A stretch of 64,000 bases of DNA from Terriglobia bacterium (GTDB lineage: Bacteria > Acidobacteriota > Terriglobia > Terriglobales > Acidobacteriaceae). The position numbers and the translations under genes are program-made. Positions 36,489 to 59,103 of this stretch are shown here, one piece after another. Where the stretch lies: positions 1 to 64,000 of the forward strand of contig JAIQFP010000009.1 in the NCBI GenBank assembly GCA_020073165.1, given 5' to 3'. Every line of letters begins with the position of its first letter. Positions within the stretch are counted from its first letter, which is position 1. The notes below the pieces were generated by a model. The model searched no databases and was not told the origin of the DNA. It was given only the letters and a program-made list of their open reading frames with translations.

Positions 36489-36565
36489 TCGCGGCGTAAC
36501 CGTTGTTAAAGGCGTTTACACTCACAACCCGGTCAATGAGTGTAATGGCGATGTTACGACAGGAA
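36489..36565. repeat. Paired TGAGTGTAA elements
   Basis: TTACACTCA (36516-36524) and TGAGTGTAA (36537-36545) form a perfect inverted repeat with a 12-nt spacer. The right one continues TGGCGATGTTACGAC, matching copies at 56351, 56722 and, in reverse, 57175-57203. The 222-bp space also has a hairpin AAGCGCGGCTCCTAGCCGCGCC. There is no gene. Confidence 0.6.
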
Positions 36566-55781: not shown

Positions 55782-56243
55782 ATGAAACTCAGACTGTTTG
55801 CGATCGTGGTCGTGCTGGCTTTGGCCACTGCGGGGTTTGCCTGGAGGGCCAAAGCCGGATCAGACGAACTGGTCCAGCTTGAGGCCGAGTTCATGAAGGC
55901 CGCGGCTGAAAAGGGCGCGGAGGGATACATGTCTTACTACGCCGAAGACGCGGTCGAACTGCCCAACGGGACAGACATGCTGCGCGGCAAAGAGAGCATC
56001 GCCAAAACCATGGGGTTCCTGGACCAGAAAGACAACCGCCTGACCTGGAAGCCGGTGCACGCTGATATGGCCTCCTCCGGCGACTTGGGCTACACGTATG
56101 GCACGTACGAGTTTCGCTCGAAGGACAAAGACGGCAAACCCACGGTCAGCTACGGTAAGTACGCGACCATCTGGAAAAAGCAGAAGGATGGAAGCTGGAA
56201 GGTGGTGATGGACATGGGGAACTCGTCTCCGATGAAACCGTAG
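55782..56243 (+). CDS. Secreted DUF4440/SnoaL-like (NTF2 fold) protein
   Basis: The protein has 153 aa. A signal peptide (LRLFAIVVVLALATAGFAWRAKA) precedes an NTF2-like domain: LEAEFMKAAAEKGAEGYMSYYAEDAVELPNGTDMLRGKESI and YGKYATIWKKQKDGSWKVVMD. DUF4440 proteins share this fold; most have no assigned reaction. TAAAAT (55746-55751) and AGAGGATGAACC stand upstream of the ATG, giving a short leader with an RBS. Confidence 0.85.
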   Translation: MKLRLFAIVVVLALATAGFAWRAKAGSDELVQLEAEFMKAAAEKGAEGYMSYYAEDAVELPNGTDMLRGKESIAKTMGFLDQKDNRLTWKPVHADMASSGDLGYTYGTYEFRSKDKDGKPTVSYGKYATIWKKQKDGSWKVVMDMGNSSPMKP

Positions 56244-56350
56244 CTGGTCGCTGGTGGCTGGCGCCTGGTTCTCAGTTTTCAATATGAACGAAGGCTCCCA
56301 GCTAAATTGGGGAGGCATCGCCACAGCACTCACGCGCATGGAAAGAGGGG

Positions 56351-56378
56351 TTATGAGTGTAATCGCCTGGTTACGCCA
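56351..56378 (+). repeat. TGAGTGTAATCGCC repeat, copy upstream of the selenoprotein gene
   Basis: TGAGTGTAATCGCCTGGTTACGCC. It shares its first 14 nt exactly with the copy at 56722 and contains the small palindrome GTAA...TTAC. Another copy in reverse orientation is at 57175-57203. Confidence 0.65.
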
Positions 56379-56457
56379 GTTTGATTTAGGGTCTCACTCG
56401 GGCCTTCTGCTCTACACGCGTACGGGTATATGCTGTTGCGCTCGGACTGAGGGCAAC

Positions 56458-56700
56458 ATGGCACGCATCGCTATTCACTACTGCGCTTATTGAATGACAG
56501 GACTGTACGCCGTCCGTGTGGCGGCGCGTCTTCGTCGCGAGGTTCAGGCCGACGTAGAAATGGTTCGAGGCCACTACGGGGAATTCAAGGTTCTCGTGGA
56601 CGGCAACACAGTCATCGACGGCGGGGCGGCGGCATTCCTCGGTGTGCTGCCGTCAGGGAGGAAAATCGTCGCGGCGGTAAGGGATTCCTTGAAACCGTGA
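56458..56700 (+). CDS. Candidate selenoprotein: SelW/Rdx-like thioredoxin-fold protein with in-frame TGA (Sec12)
   Basis: The protein has 80 aa if TGA (56491-56493) is read as selenocysteine. The ATG at 56458 has GAGGG 4 nt upstream. Translation gives ...IHYC-A-Y-U..., a C-x-x-U redox motif at the Rdx-family position, and after the TGA the same frame runs on with ...REVQADVEMV, GEFKVLVDGNTV and LGVLPSGRKIV, the SelW-type strand pattern. A stem of ACA-GGAC with GTCC-(G)-TGT (56497-56519) and loop TGTACGCC lies just downstream and may act as a SECIS. Rdx proteins are small oxidoreductases. SelA/B/D and tRNA-Sec must be elsewhere; none is in this window. Confidence 0.75.
56497..56519 (+). promoter_or_regulatory. 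Putative bacterial SECIS hairpin
   Basis: ACAGGAC pairs with GTCC(G)TGT around the 8-nt loop TGTACGCC, 3-26 nt after the TGA. It is a short stem-loop with a GU in the loop, within the coding region, where bacterial SECIS elements sit. The fold was drawn by eye. Confidence 0.5.
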
Positions 56701-56721
56701 CCCGCCCCGGGTTGGCCGAGT

Positions 56722-56752
56722 CGTGAGTGTAATCGCCTGATTACGACGGTTA
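56722..56752 (+). repeat. TGAGTGTAATCGCC repeat, copy after the selenoprotein gene
   Basis: TGAGTGTAATCGCC followed by TGATTACGACGG. Same family and orientation as the 56351 copy. A small palindrome CTAACCTGTTAG lies near 56781-56792, just before the next gene. Confidence 0.65.
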
Positions 56753-56809
56753 TGCTGCGGCTCCCCCGACCGCTCGCTAAACTAACCTGTTAGGGTGCGA
56801 GGTACAACG

Positions 56810-57172
56810 GTGAAGGCTCTATTATTACGTTCTCTTCTCGTCGCAGTACTTGCTGGCCCTGCCATTAGTTTCGTCAGCAAAGTCGCATCACTCCAGGGTG
56901 GAACGAAATACGACCCGCCTTTGAGCGAAGCCGAATTCCATCAGATGGGAAATATGACAGTAAACGAGATGGAAGCTGCCCTCGCGAAAAGGAGAATTAA
57001 GATGACTCGGTGGGACTGGCTTGAGGATTCTGTTCCCTATTCGTATTTCTGGAAGCAGGTCGCGCATGATGCCATCGTGCCGAGTTCTGGCGTGTTTCTT
57101 GCGTGCGTATGGATCGGCTGGGTGGAAAAAAGACACGCACAGAAGGCTGAAGGCCACCATTTAGTGGCGTAG
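56810..57172 (+). CDS. Small hypothetical membrane or secreted protein
   Basis: The protein has 120 aa from GTG at 56810 (GAGGT about 7 nt upstream); GTG at 56795 would add five residues. An N-terminal hydrophobic segment (ALLLRSLLVAVLAGPAISFV) and a second one near the C-terminus (VFLACVWIGWVEKR) flank a charged region (LSEAEFHQMGNMTVNEMEAALAKRRIKMTRWDWLEDS). I do not know a family. It sits between copies of the TGAGTGTAA repeat, in a stretch with somewhat lower GC than its neighbours. Confidence 0.55.
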   Translation: MKALLLRSLLVAVLAGPAISFVSKVASLQGGTKYDPPLSEAEFHQMGNMTVNEMEAALAKRRIKMTRWDWLEDSVPYSYFWKQVAHDAIVPSSGVFLACVWIGWVEKRHAQKAEGHHLVA

Positions 57173-57174
57173 TT

Positions 57175-57203
57175 GGCGTAACATCGCCATTACGCTCATC
57201 GAG
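57175..57203 (-). repeat. TGAGYGTAATGGC repeat, inverted copy
   Basis: On the minus strand it reads TGAGCGTAATGGCGATGTTACGCC. It is inverted relative to 56351 and 56722, so the module 56351-57203 is flanked by inverted copies. Confidence 0.6.
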
Positions 57204-57276
57204 CTCGAGGGACGATTCCGCGCGGCGGCCGATGCGTCAGCAGATTAGGTTCTTGCCCCAAGACCGCCACCAGCCA

Positions 57277-59103
57277 CTACTTCCTGAAGTGACCCAGAAT
57301 GGCCTCCGCCTGGCTGCGTGTCACTACCGCAGAGAGCGCCCCTACGTCAGCCTGCTTTACCGCCTGCACACTGCCGAAGTGCTCCAGCAGGCGGCGCGTC
57401 GTGCGCTCCCCTACTCCGGGAATGTCGCGCAGCTCGGTGGAGCGGTCGCGCATCTGACGCCGCTTGCGGTGGAAGGTCACAGCGAAGCGGTGGGCCTCAT
57501 CGCGAATCAACTGCACCAGATGCAAAACCGGTGAATGGTGGTCGAGCACGACCGGTTCATTCTCCTGCCCGTGCACGTAAATGATCTCCTCGCGCTTGGC
57601 AATTGCGGCCAGCGGCTGGTTGATGATCTCCAGCGACTCCAGGGCCTCGGCCGCCGCGTGCAACTGGCCAAGGCCGCCGTCGATCAGCACCAGGCTGGGC
57701 ATTTTCTTTTTTTCTTCCTGCAAACGCTTGTAGCGGCGCGTCACCACCTCGCGCATGGAGGCGAAATCGTCCACGCCATCCACGCTCCTGATAATGAATT
57801 TGCGGTAGTCCGACTTTTTCATCTGGCCGTCTTCCCAGACCACCATCGAAGCCACCGTCTCGGCGCCCTGGATGTGCGAGATGTCGAAGCACTCGATGCG
57901 GTGGGGCAACTCGGGCAGGCCCAGCGCGTCCTGCAAGGTTTCCTGAATAGCCTTGGTATTCGGCTTCATCACGCGGAAACGCTGGTCGTAAGACTGCTTG
58001 GCATTGTTGCCCGCCAAATCGATGAGCGAACGCTTGTCGCCACGTTGCGGGACGATGATGTGAACCCGTGCGGGGCGGACACCGGCCAACTGGTCACTCA
58101 GCACCTCCTCCAGTTCCTCCCGATCTTCAAACTCCACGGGCACATAGATATTTCGTGGCACATACGGCTGGCCGATATAGACCTGCTTCAGCAGGGCAGA
58201 GAAGAATTCGCCGGGACTGAACTCATCAACTTCGGCACCAAAGGGCAAGTCTTCCCAGAAAAACTCCCGTCGATCCAGTACCCGCCCGCCACGCATGTGA
58301 AATAGATTCACCGCCAGCATGCCGTTCTCGTAGTGATATCCGAAGACGTCGGCGTCGTCGCCTTCGACTGCGGCGATGCGTTGTTTCTCCTGCAACTGTT
58401 CGACGGTGGAAATCAGGTCGCGGTAGCGCGCGGCGCGCTCGTATTCTTCAGCCTCCGCTGCCGCTCCCATGCGCTCACGCAGCGAGCGAGACAGGTCAGT
58501 GGGCCGCCCCTCCAGGAACAACTTCACGTCGCGCACTGCCTCCTGGTAGATCTCCGGCGTGGTCAGGCCTTCCACGCAAGGTCCTAGGCAGCGTTTGATG
58601 TAGTACTGCAAGCAGGGCCGCGGATGGTAGCGGGTCAGGTCCACCTTGCAGGACGGGACCAGAAAATGGCGGTGGATCAGGTCTACAAGGCGATGCGCCA
58701 GGTTGGCCGGGAAGTAGGGGCCGTAGTACGAACTGCCATCCTTCCGCAGCCGCCGCGTGACATAGACACGCGGGAATCGCTCCCCCAGCGTGAGCTTGAC
58801 GTAGGGATACGTCTTGTCGTCACGCAGGAGGATATTGAAGCGCGGCTGCTTCTGCTTAATCAGGTGGTTTTCGAGTGCCAGCGCCTCTTTATTGTTGGCG
58901 ACGACGATGTAGTCAACATCCACCGCCTCGCGCACCAGGGTGTCGGTCTTGGCATCCTCCCAGCGGCCTTCGCGAAAATAGGAGGAGACCCGGCTGCGCA
59001 AGTTCTTGGCCTTGCCAATGTAAATGACCTCACCCTCGGCGTTCTTGTAGAGATACACGCCGGGTTCGGTGGGCAGGGTGCGGATTTTCTGCGAGAGGTC
59101 CAT
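57277..59103 (-). CDS. uvrC: Excinuclease ABC subunit C
   Basis: The protein has 608 aa, the normal length. It makes both incisions in nucleotide excision repair. The GIY-YIG domain (GVYLYKNAEGEVIYIGKAKNLRSR, Y and R catalytic), Cys-rich region (CLQYYIKRCLGPCVE), UVR motif (EYERAARYRDLISTVEQLQEKQR in part), RNase H-like endonuclease domain (ECFDISHIQGAETVASMV; LVLIDGGLGQL) and C-terminal HhH (DIPGVGERTTRRLLEHFG) are all present. TAGAAT upstream near 59120 on the minus strand could be its promoter. Confidence 0.95.
   Translation of the reverse strand: MDLSQKIRTLPTEPGVYLYKNAEGEVIYIGKAKNLRSRVSSYFREGRWEDAKTDTLVREAVDVDYIVVANNKEALALENHLIKQKQPRFNILLRDDKTYPYVKLTLGERFPRVYVTRRLRKDGSSYYGPYFPANLAHRLVDLIHRHFLVPSCKVDLTRYHPRPCLQYYIKRCLGPCVEGLTTPEIYQEAVRDVKLFLEGRPTDLSRSLRERMGAAAEAEEYERAARYRDLISTVEQLQEKQRIAAVEGDDADVFGYHYENGMLAVNLFHMRGGRVLDRREFFWEDLPFGAEVDEFSPGEFFSALLKQVYIGQPYVPRNIYVPVEFEDREELEEVLSDQLAGVRPARVHIIVPQRGDKRSLIDLAGNNAKQSYDQRFRVMKPNTKAIQETLQDALGLPELPHRIECFDISHIQGAETVASMVVWEDGQMKKSDYRKFIIRSVDGVDDFASMREVVTRRYKRLQEEKKKMPSLVLIDGGLGQLHAAAEALESLEIINQPLAAIAKREEIIYVHGQENEPVVLDHHSPVLHLVQLIRDEAHRFAVTFHRKRRQMRDRSTELRDIPGVGERTTRRLLEHFGSVQAVKQADVGALSAVVTRSQAEAILGHFRK

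Follow-up and report, generated by a model that had tools for sequence, protein, structure and literature searches.

A SelW-like gene with an in-frame TGA in a Terriglobia bacterium very probably encodes a selenoprotein

The window analysed here, a 64,000-nt stretch of a Terriglobia bacterium contig, carries on its forward strand a short gene that almost certainly encodes a stand-alone thioredoxin-fold selenoprotein of the SelW/Rdx family with selenocysteine (Sec) at residue 12. The proposal goes back to a first-pass annotation of the letters alone, and it is borne out on each of the three points on which it could have failed: the genome holds the Sec-decoding machinery, close relatives read on through the TGA, and the frame beyond the TGA is constrained. 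As judged from sequence, the selenoprotein is very probably real.

Gene structure, family and predicted fold

The start codon at 56458, the TGC-GCT-TAT-TGA run at 56482–56493 and the same-phase frame open to 56698 are all present in the sequence (Table 1), and the ribosome-binding site that had been read ahead of the start corresponds to a GAGGG run. With TGA taken as Sec, 56458–56700 translates as MARIAIHYCAYUMTGLYAVRVAARLRREVQADVEMVRGHYGEFKVLVDGNTVIDGGAAAFLGVLPSGRKIVAAVRDSLKP, and the gene ends at a second TGA (56698–56700). Under a plain table 11 reading the region falls into two pieces, a 79-aa ORF from GTG 56254 and a 68-aa ORF from ATG 56494; automatic gene calling under the unmodified bacterial code would split the gene at the TGA.

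Table 1 Coordinates of the gene and of features in the segment around it
Feature	Position	Strand	Remarks
selW-like (Rdx) selenoprotein gene, very probable	56458..56700	+	80 aa, U at residue 12, TGA stop
In-frame TGA, very probably for Sec, C-A-Y-U motif	56491..56493	+	TGA in 10/10 relatives; Sec machinery in genome
GAGGG, ribosome-binding-site-like	56449..56453	+	4 nt before ATG; seen in sequence
Putative bacterial SECIS hairpin	56508..56526	+	CGCCGTC-cgtgt-GGCGGCG; synonymous-site freeze, position
Segment unaligned at this site in G001, a same-genus genome	56231..57276	.	roughly 1 kb
'L' copy of 27-bp repeat, upstream of gene	56349..56381	+	GGTTATGAGTGTAATCGCCTGGTTACG
Second 'L' copy of 27-bp repeat, downstream of gene	56719..56751	+	
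125-aa ORF in the same segment	56795..57172	+	hydrophobic N-terminus
Inverted 'R' copy of repeat, beyond 125-aa ORF	57177..57203	-	

The window protein matches Pfam Rdx PF10262 above its cut-off (E 3e-5, 24.6 bits, cut-off 22.6). The two NCBIfam models at E up to 1, NF041051 SelTWH_Campy (E 4.7e-8, 33.2 bits) and TIGR02174 CXXU_selWTH (E 0.18, 12.1 bits), align with it over residues 4–69 and 4–52, but it stays under both curated cut-offs (88 and 34.2). The Rdx/SelW call of the first-pass annotation is therefore upheld by the Pfam model and by the predicted fold, and not by the NCBIfam SelWTH models. In the PDB, 2fa8 (Atu0228; E 8.2e-4) is found by a profile that combines the window protein with its 10 relatives. 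An AlphaFold2 model (pLDDT 87.7, pTM 0.79), built from an 11-row alignment with the TGA entered as Cys, has as its top 21 fold matches the chains of six PDB entries, 2fa8, 2ojl, 2p0g, 2obk, 2oka and 3dex, two of which are titled SelW-related and one a putative Se-binding protein. The predicted fold gives TM 0.80 with 2fa8, 0.81 with 2p0g and 0.83 with 3dex, and for the best chain of each, the SelW-related structures 2fa8, 2ojl, 2p0g and 3dex lie at TM 0.79–0.83, although identity in these fold alignments is only about 21–31%; all four we take to be Cys proteins. Mouse SelW (2npb) is matched with TM 0.65 and E 1.5e-3. In the model a strand at residues 4–8 leads into C9-x-x-U12, so that the CxxU is predicted to follow the first β-strand of a small thioredoxin-like fold, the arrangement by which SelW/Rdx proteins are recognised.

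Conservation of the TGA, the frame and a putative SECIS hairpin

A scan of genome contigs finds 10 relatives that are 56–87% identical to the window protein, namely eight Acidobacteriota loci, one from Gemmatimonadaceae and one from an Eisenbacteria MAG. In 10/10 of them TGA stands at the Sec codon, where it occupies the second redox site of C-x-x-U within a longer conserved frame, and every one reads on past it. The in-frame TGA thus stands within a conserved coding frame, and its placement, which the first reading had thought unlikely by chance, is not a chance event because the same codon is TGA in all of these relatives. In one of them (L011) a further TGA two codons past the matched stretch is probably the stop of that gene. 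Two of the eight Acidobacteriota loci (L015, L019) are Sec-type paralogues on separate contigs of one MAG, SZAS-9; similarity is gone after codon 64 in L019, perhaps through a frameshift.

Translation could also restart at ATG 56494, directly past the TGA, to give two proteins, the second of which would be the 68-aa ORF of the table 11 list. Where the window protein has M after U, the 10 relatives have V, I or L, so that ATG 56494 lacks conservation as a restart codon; and because the first strand and the CxxU stand before and at the TGA in the predicted fold, neither half alone would hold the whole fold. A restart is exceedingly unlikely on these grounds, and a single product read through the TGA is the preferred reading.

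The frame downstream of the TGA is under purifying selection, with a median dN/dS of 0.25 (range 0.07–0.63; Nei-Gojobori) over the 79/91 pairs in which it could be computed from a set of 14 sequences (the window, the 10 relatives, L030, L036 and L037); those listed among the other 12 pairs, three in number, all involve L011 and its TGA stop. Within this frame the strongest synonymous-site footprint coincides with the hairpin at 56508–56526. Where a pair of sequences has the same amino acid, the identical codon is used in 397/485 cases (0.82) over codons 18–23 vs 1325/2958 (0.45) over codons 25–78, codons 17–22 show the strongest freeze (0.87) among 71 six-codon windows (median 0.45), and codons 18, 19, 21 and 22 have the same codon in all such pairs. 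The other invariant single codons among those listed are Cys 9 and Tyr 40, and the six-codon windows that start at codon 39 (0.64) and codon 40 (0.62) are also raised.

The hairpin has a 7-bp stem and a 5-nt loop, CGTGT, with G at loop position 2, and is spaced 14 nt (stem) and 21 nt (loop) from the TGA. Bacterial SECIS elements are described as having a guanosine in a small apical loop (PMC1088965). The stem-loop that had been noticed after the TGA is present and conserved, but its folding energy is no better than that of shuffled sequence, with z -0.41 (56491–56535) and 0.20 (56482–56540) in the window and -1.10 to 0.68 in seven folded sequences, none of which falls clearly below its shuffles. 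Stem pair counting finds no two-sided changes and no covariation, with pairing in 94.8% of cells and in 89.6% for a version shifted by -3, and Rfam families give no match in the window at their gathering thresholds. Because energy and covariation yield no signal, we draw the assignment from synonymous-site conservation and position, by which the hairpin fits a putative bacterial SECIS element.

Sec-decoding machinery, relatives and known SelW-like selenoproteins

The search of the genome that the first-pass annotation had called for finds all four Sec-decoding genes: selC, the tRNA-Sec gene (70.3 bits, Rfam cut-off 47; called tRNA-SeC by ARAGORN), and, each above its cut-off, selA (535.3 bits, two joined stretches), selB (370.7 bits) and selD (341.5 bits, two stretches with one in-frame TGA). 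With its TGA as U the selD frame reads MSESKPFRLTESVKAAGUASKLSP..., and this gene (L128, G000 C2:127000-129500) is a selenoprotein candidate too, its TGA lying within KAAGUASK, where SelD proteins presumably have Cys or Sec.

The TGA might instead be an ordinary stop, the gene being a degenerate SelW pseudogene in which a Cys codon has become TGA. A single base change would be enough for this, and a search with the single sequence finds the gene in 0/59 further genomes from the family, one of which is from the own genus. Yet the same TGA in ten of ten relatives, purifying selection past it and Sec-decoding genes in the genome all argue against a pseudogene, which is very improbable, and for a functional Sec codon.

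Across the phylum, selA is above cut-off in 66/71 genomes with a SelW-like match, among which the own genome and a Cys form (G106) are counted, vs 62/78 controls, these being the genomes outside the matches of the class and phylum scans, whose lack of a match is mostly presumed; many genomes in this comparison are incomplete. The matched genomes without selA above cut-off are G437, G485, G558, G616 and G789, in the last of which the gene is split. Since selA is widespread in the phylum, also in genomes taken as gene-free, its co-occurrence with the SelW-like gene is weak evidence.

Scans of whole genomes that take the protein alignment as query find, at E 1e-3, a match in 9/399 genomes of the class and 63/396 of the phylum, the own genome being counted in both; in the class sample one other genome of the same family, G334, has a distant match (CPTU). 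The frames read at 37 loci of these wider scans, at least 3 of which (L028, L029, L035) may coincide with records among the 10 relatives, comprise 36 CxxU and 1 CxxC (L034, CTQC). Another 39 match rows of the phylum scan include 37 with one in-frame TGA (place not given) and 2 (G759, G778) with none. A more distant SelW-like variant, CPTUxNN with GNWFTRSFGAGYP in the C-terminal half, is seen at L033 and L051. Neither viral contigs (25 pattern matches, none confirmed) nor plasmids yield a relative of the gene.

The single Cys form also bears on which residue is inserted. A reading frame alone cannot name it, and a general code change or a suppressor tRNA could make TGA a codon for Trp or Cys; however, the gene's own stop is TGA, the genome has the standard Sec machinery, and the TGA site corresponds to the second redox residue of the CxxC in L034. 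Decoding as Trp or Cys is extremely improbable, and Sec is the residue we favour.

In a tree of 40 of 48 rows (eight duplicate, near-identical or partial rows left out) the window protein falls in a 14-row clade (support 100/100, stem 1.63) that is separate from other SelW-like selenoproteins and in which 14/14 rows are Sec forms; its nearest neighbour is Candidatus Solibacter (L011). The clade has the motif [YF]C[ASTP][YF]U, whereas many distant SelW-like matches read YCxxUNYxP, and its C-terminal half differs from that of other SelW-like selenoproteins. The nearest relatives lie outside the own family, as sampled, and this is compatible with a lateral gain of the gene, a fit rather than a proof. 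Around the 10 relatives, a comparison by eye of the adjacent ORFs, at most two per side and selected with a simple filter on length and GC3, reveals no common neighbour.

In the available parts of earlier surveys, SelW-like proteins are the most abundant selenoprotein family of the Sargasso Sea set (PMC1088965), belong to the most abundant families of GOS with 427 Sec forms vs 56 Cys homologues (PMC2398784), and are among 25 bacterial families in a 2006 genome survey, in which their Cys homologues are very few or absent in Sec-containing organisms and Acidobacteria have 4 selenoproteins in 3 families (PMC1794560). The window gene resembles the bacterial SelW-like selenoproteins of these texts in its CxxU, its TGA-coded Sec, its downstream hairpin and its few Cys homologues. 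A passage of the deep-Sep paper gives the acidobacterium Occallatibacter riparius 3 known selenoproteins, whose names do not appear in that passage (PMC12013277), and the accessible portion of a 2026 review (PMC13188914) does not mention SelW, Rdx or Acidobacteri-. At the level of titles and listings, the literature on selenoproteins with SelW, Rdx, Acidobacteria/Acidobacteriota or horizontal gene transfer holds no paper found on the window's subclade. Bacterial SelW-like selenoproteins are thus already known, and the window gene adds one in a Sec-only subclade.

With the frame, the machinery genes, the TGA conservation, the constraint on frame and hairpin sequence and the predicted fold directly supported, we infer SelB binding, Sec incorporation, redox activity and a redox partner. 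Translation would start at 56458; at the UGA the hairpin, after its 14-nt spacer, would recruit SelB with Sec-tRNA-Sec, which would be made by SelA with selenophosphate from SelD, and Sec would be put in at residue 12 before translation ends at the second UGA. The protein would act as a small thiol/selenol oxidoreductase with C9-x-x-U12 as its redox centre and glutathione or thioredoxin as its probable partner.

A variable segment and its repeats

The gene lies in a segment that is replaced in the same-genus genome G001, where flanks aligning at 82% and 84% enclose 127 other bases instead of 56231–57276. The exact empty site is unreadable because most of these 127 bases can be aligned at 71% to a different intergenic repeat in the window. 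Within the L copies lies a 28-bp direct repeat (56354–56381 and 56724–56751) on the two flanks of the selenoprotein gene, and an inverted copy of it (57174–57199) follows the 125-aa ORF. For this ORF Pfam gives no match at E 0.01. Two observations in the segment weigh against the selenoprotein reading: a search for sigma-70-like promoters found none, and one terminator-like hairpin (56357–56376, +) lies upstream of the gene within an L repeat. Terminator-like sites in 56230–57280 number 4 vs 0.8 expected from shuffles. A further R copy stands elsewhere in the window (36532–36558, +), with no partner there at the threshold used.

The repeat core pattern (both versions, up to two mismatches) has 19 matches in the own genome vs 0 for a reversed control, and occurs in 20/80 searched genomes, of which 18 belong to the own family, the reversed control having one match each in 3/80. 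The exact core GAGTGTAATNGC is present at 10/94 loci examined, all from the own genome or G001. In a repeat-end scan of 36 loci, 7 have one or two ORFs enclosed by ends that face outward and lie no more than 1.8 kb apart, and two of these 7 are the same place; most of the remaining loci show a single end, and many were 3-kb cuts. Elsewhere in the own genome the L/R repeat borders single genes (G000 C20:59369-62743, L092; C27:39035-39972, L093; C18:20399-20896, L125), and the genes beside or between ends include CAAX-protease-like, PEMT/ICMT-like, DUF2934 and DUF1579-like (below cut-off) genes and unknowns. In some cases R and L ends lie directly side by side, as R–L junctions.

The roughly 1-kb segment and the repeat suggest a mobile cassette. 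Tentatively, and with some doubt, we propose that the selenoprotein gene is cargo of a small transposase-free cassette with 27-bp L/R ends that carries other single genes in the family. The repeat system may be integron-like, its ends acting as attC sites; as single-stranded DNA one 58-nt R–L junction has a strong fold (z -5.24), but three single ends of the window are less outstanding (z -0.86, -2.01, -2.30), and the isolated gene units (L and R, or L without R) are unlike attC sites, which are arranged head-to-tail. It may also be transposon-like, against which stand the lack of a transposase in five cargo proteins scanned outside the window and of a target duplication by eye, or may be a set of old repeats. 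The flanks of 9/10 relatives (L013 left out) share no common inverted repeat, a comparison that is blind to this repeat because the same settings found none in the two window flanks. No description of the repeat system was found in a partial literature search, which is not evidence that none exists.

The gene and its relatives add a well-supported Sec-only SelW-like subclade, spread over Acidobacteriota and two other phyla, that shows a clear synonymous-site footprint at its putative SECIS element. If the tentative cassette reading is true, it would account for the patchy spread of the gene and the absence of common neighbours; Sec-decoding bacteria would then exchange selenoprotein genes in much the way that integron cassettes are exchanged, and such genes would have a concrete route between bacteria able to decode Sec.
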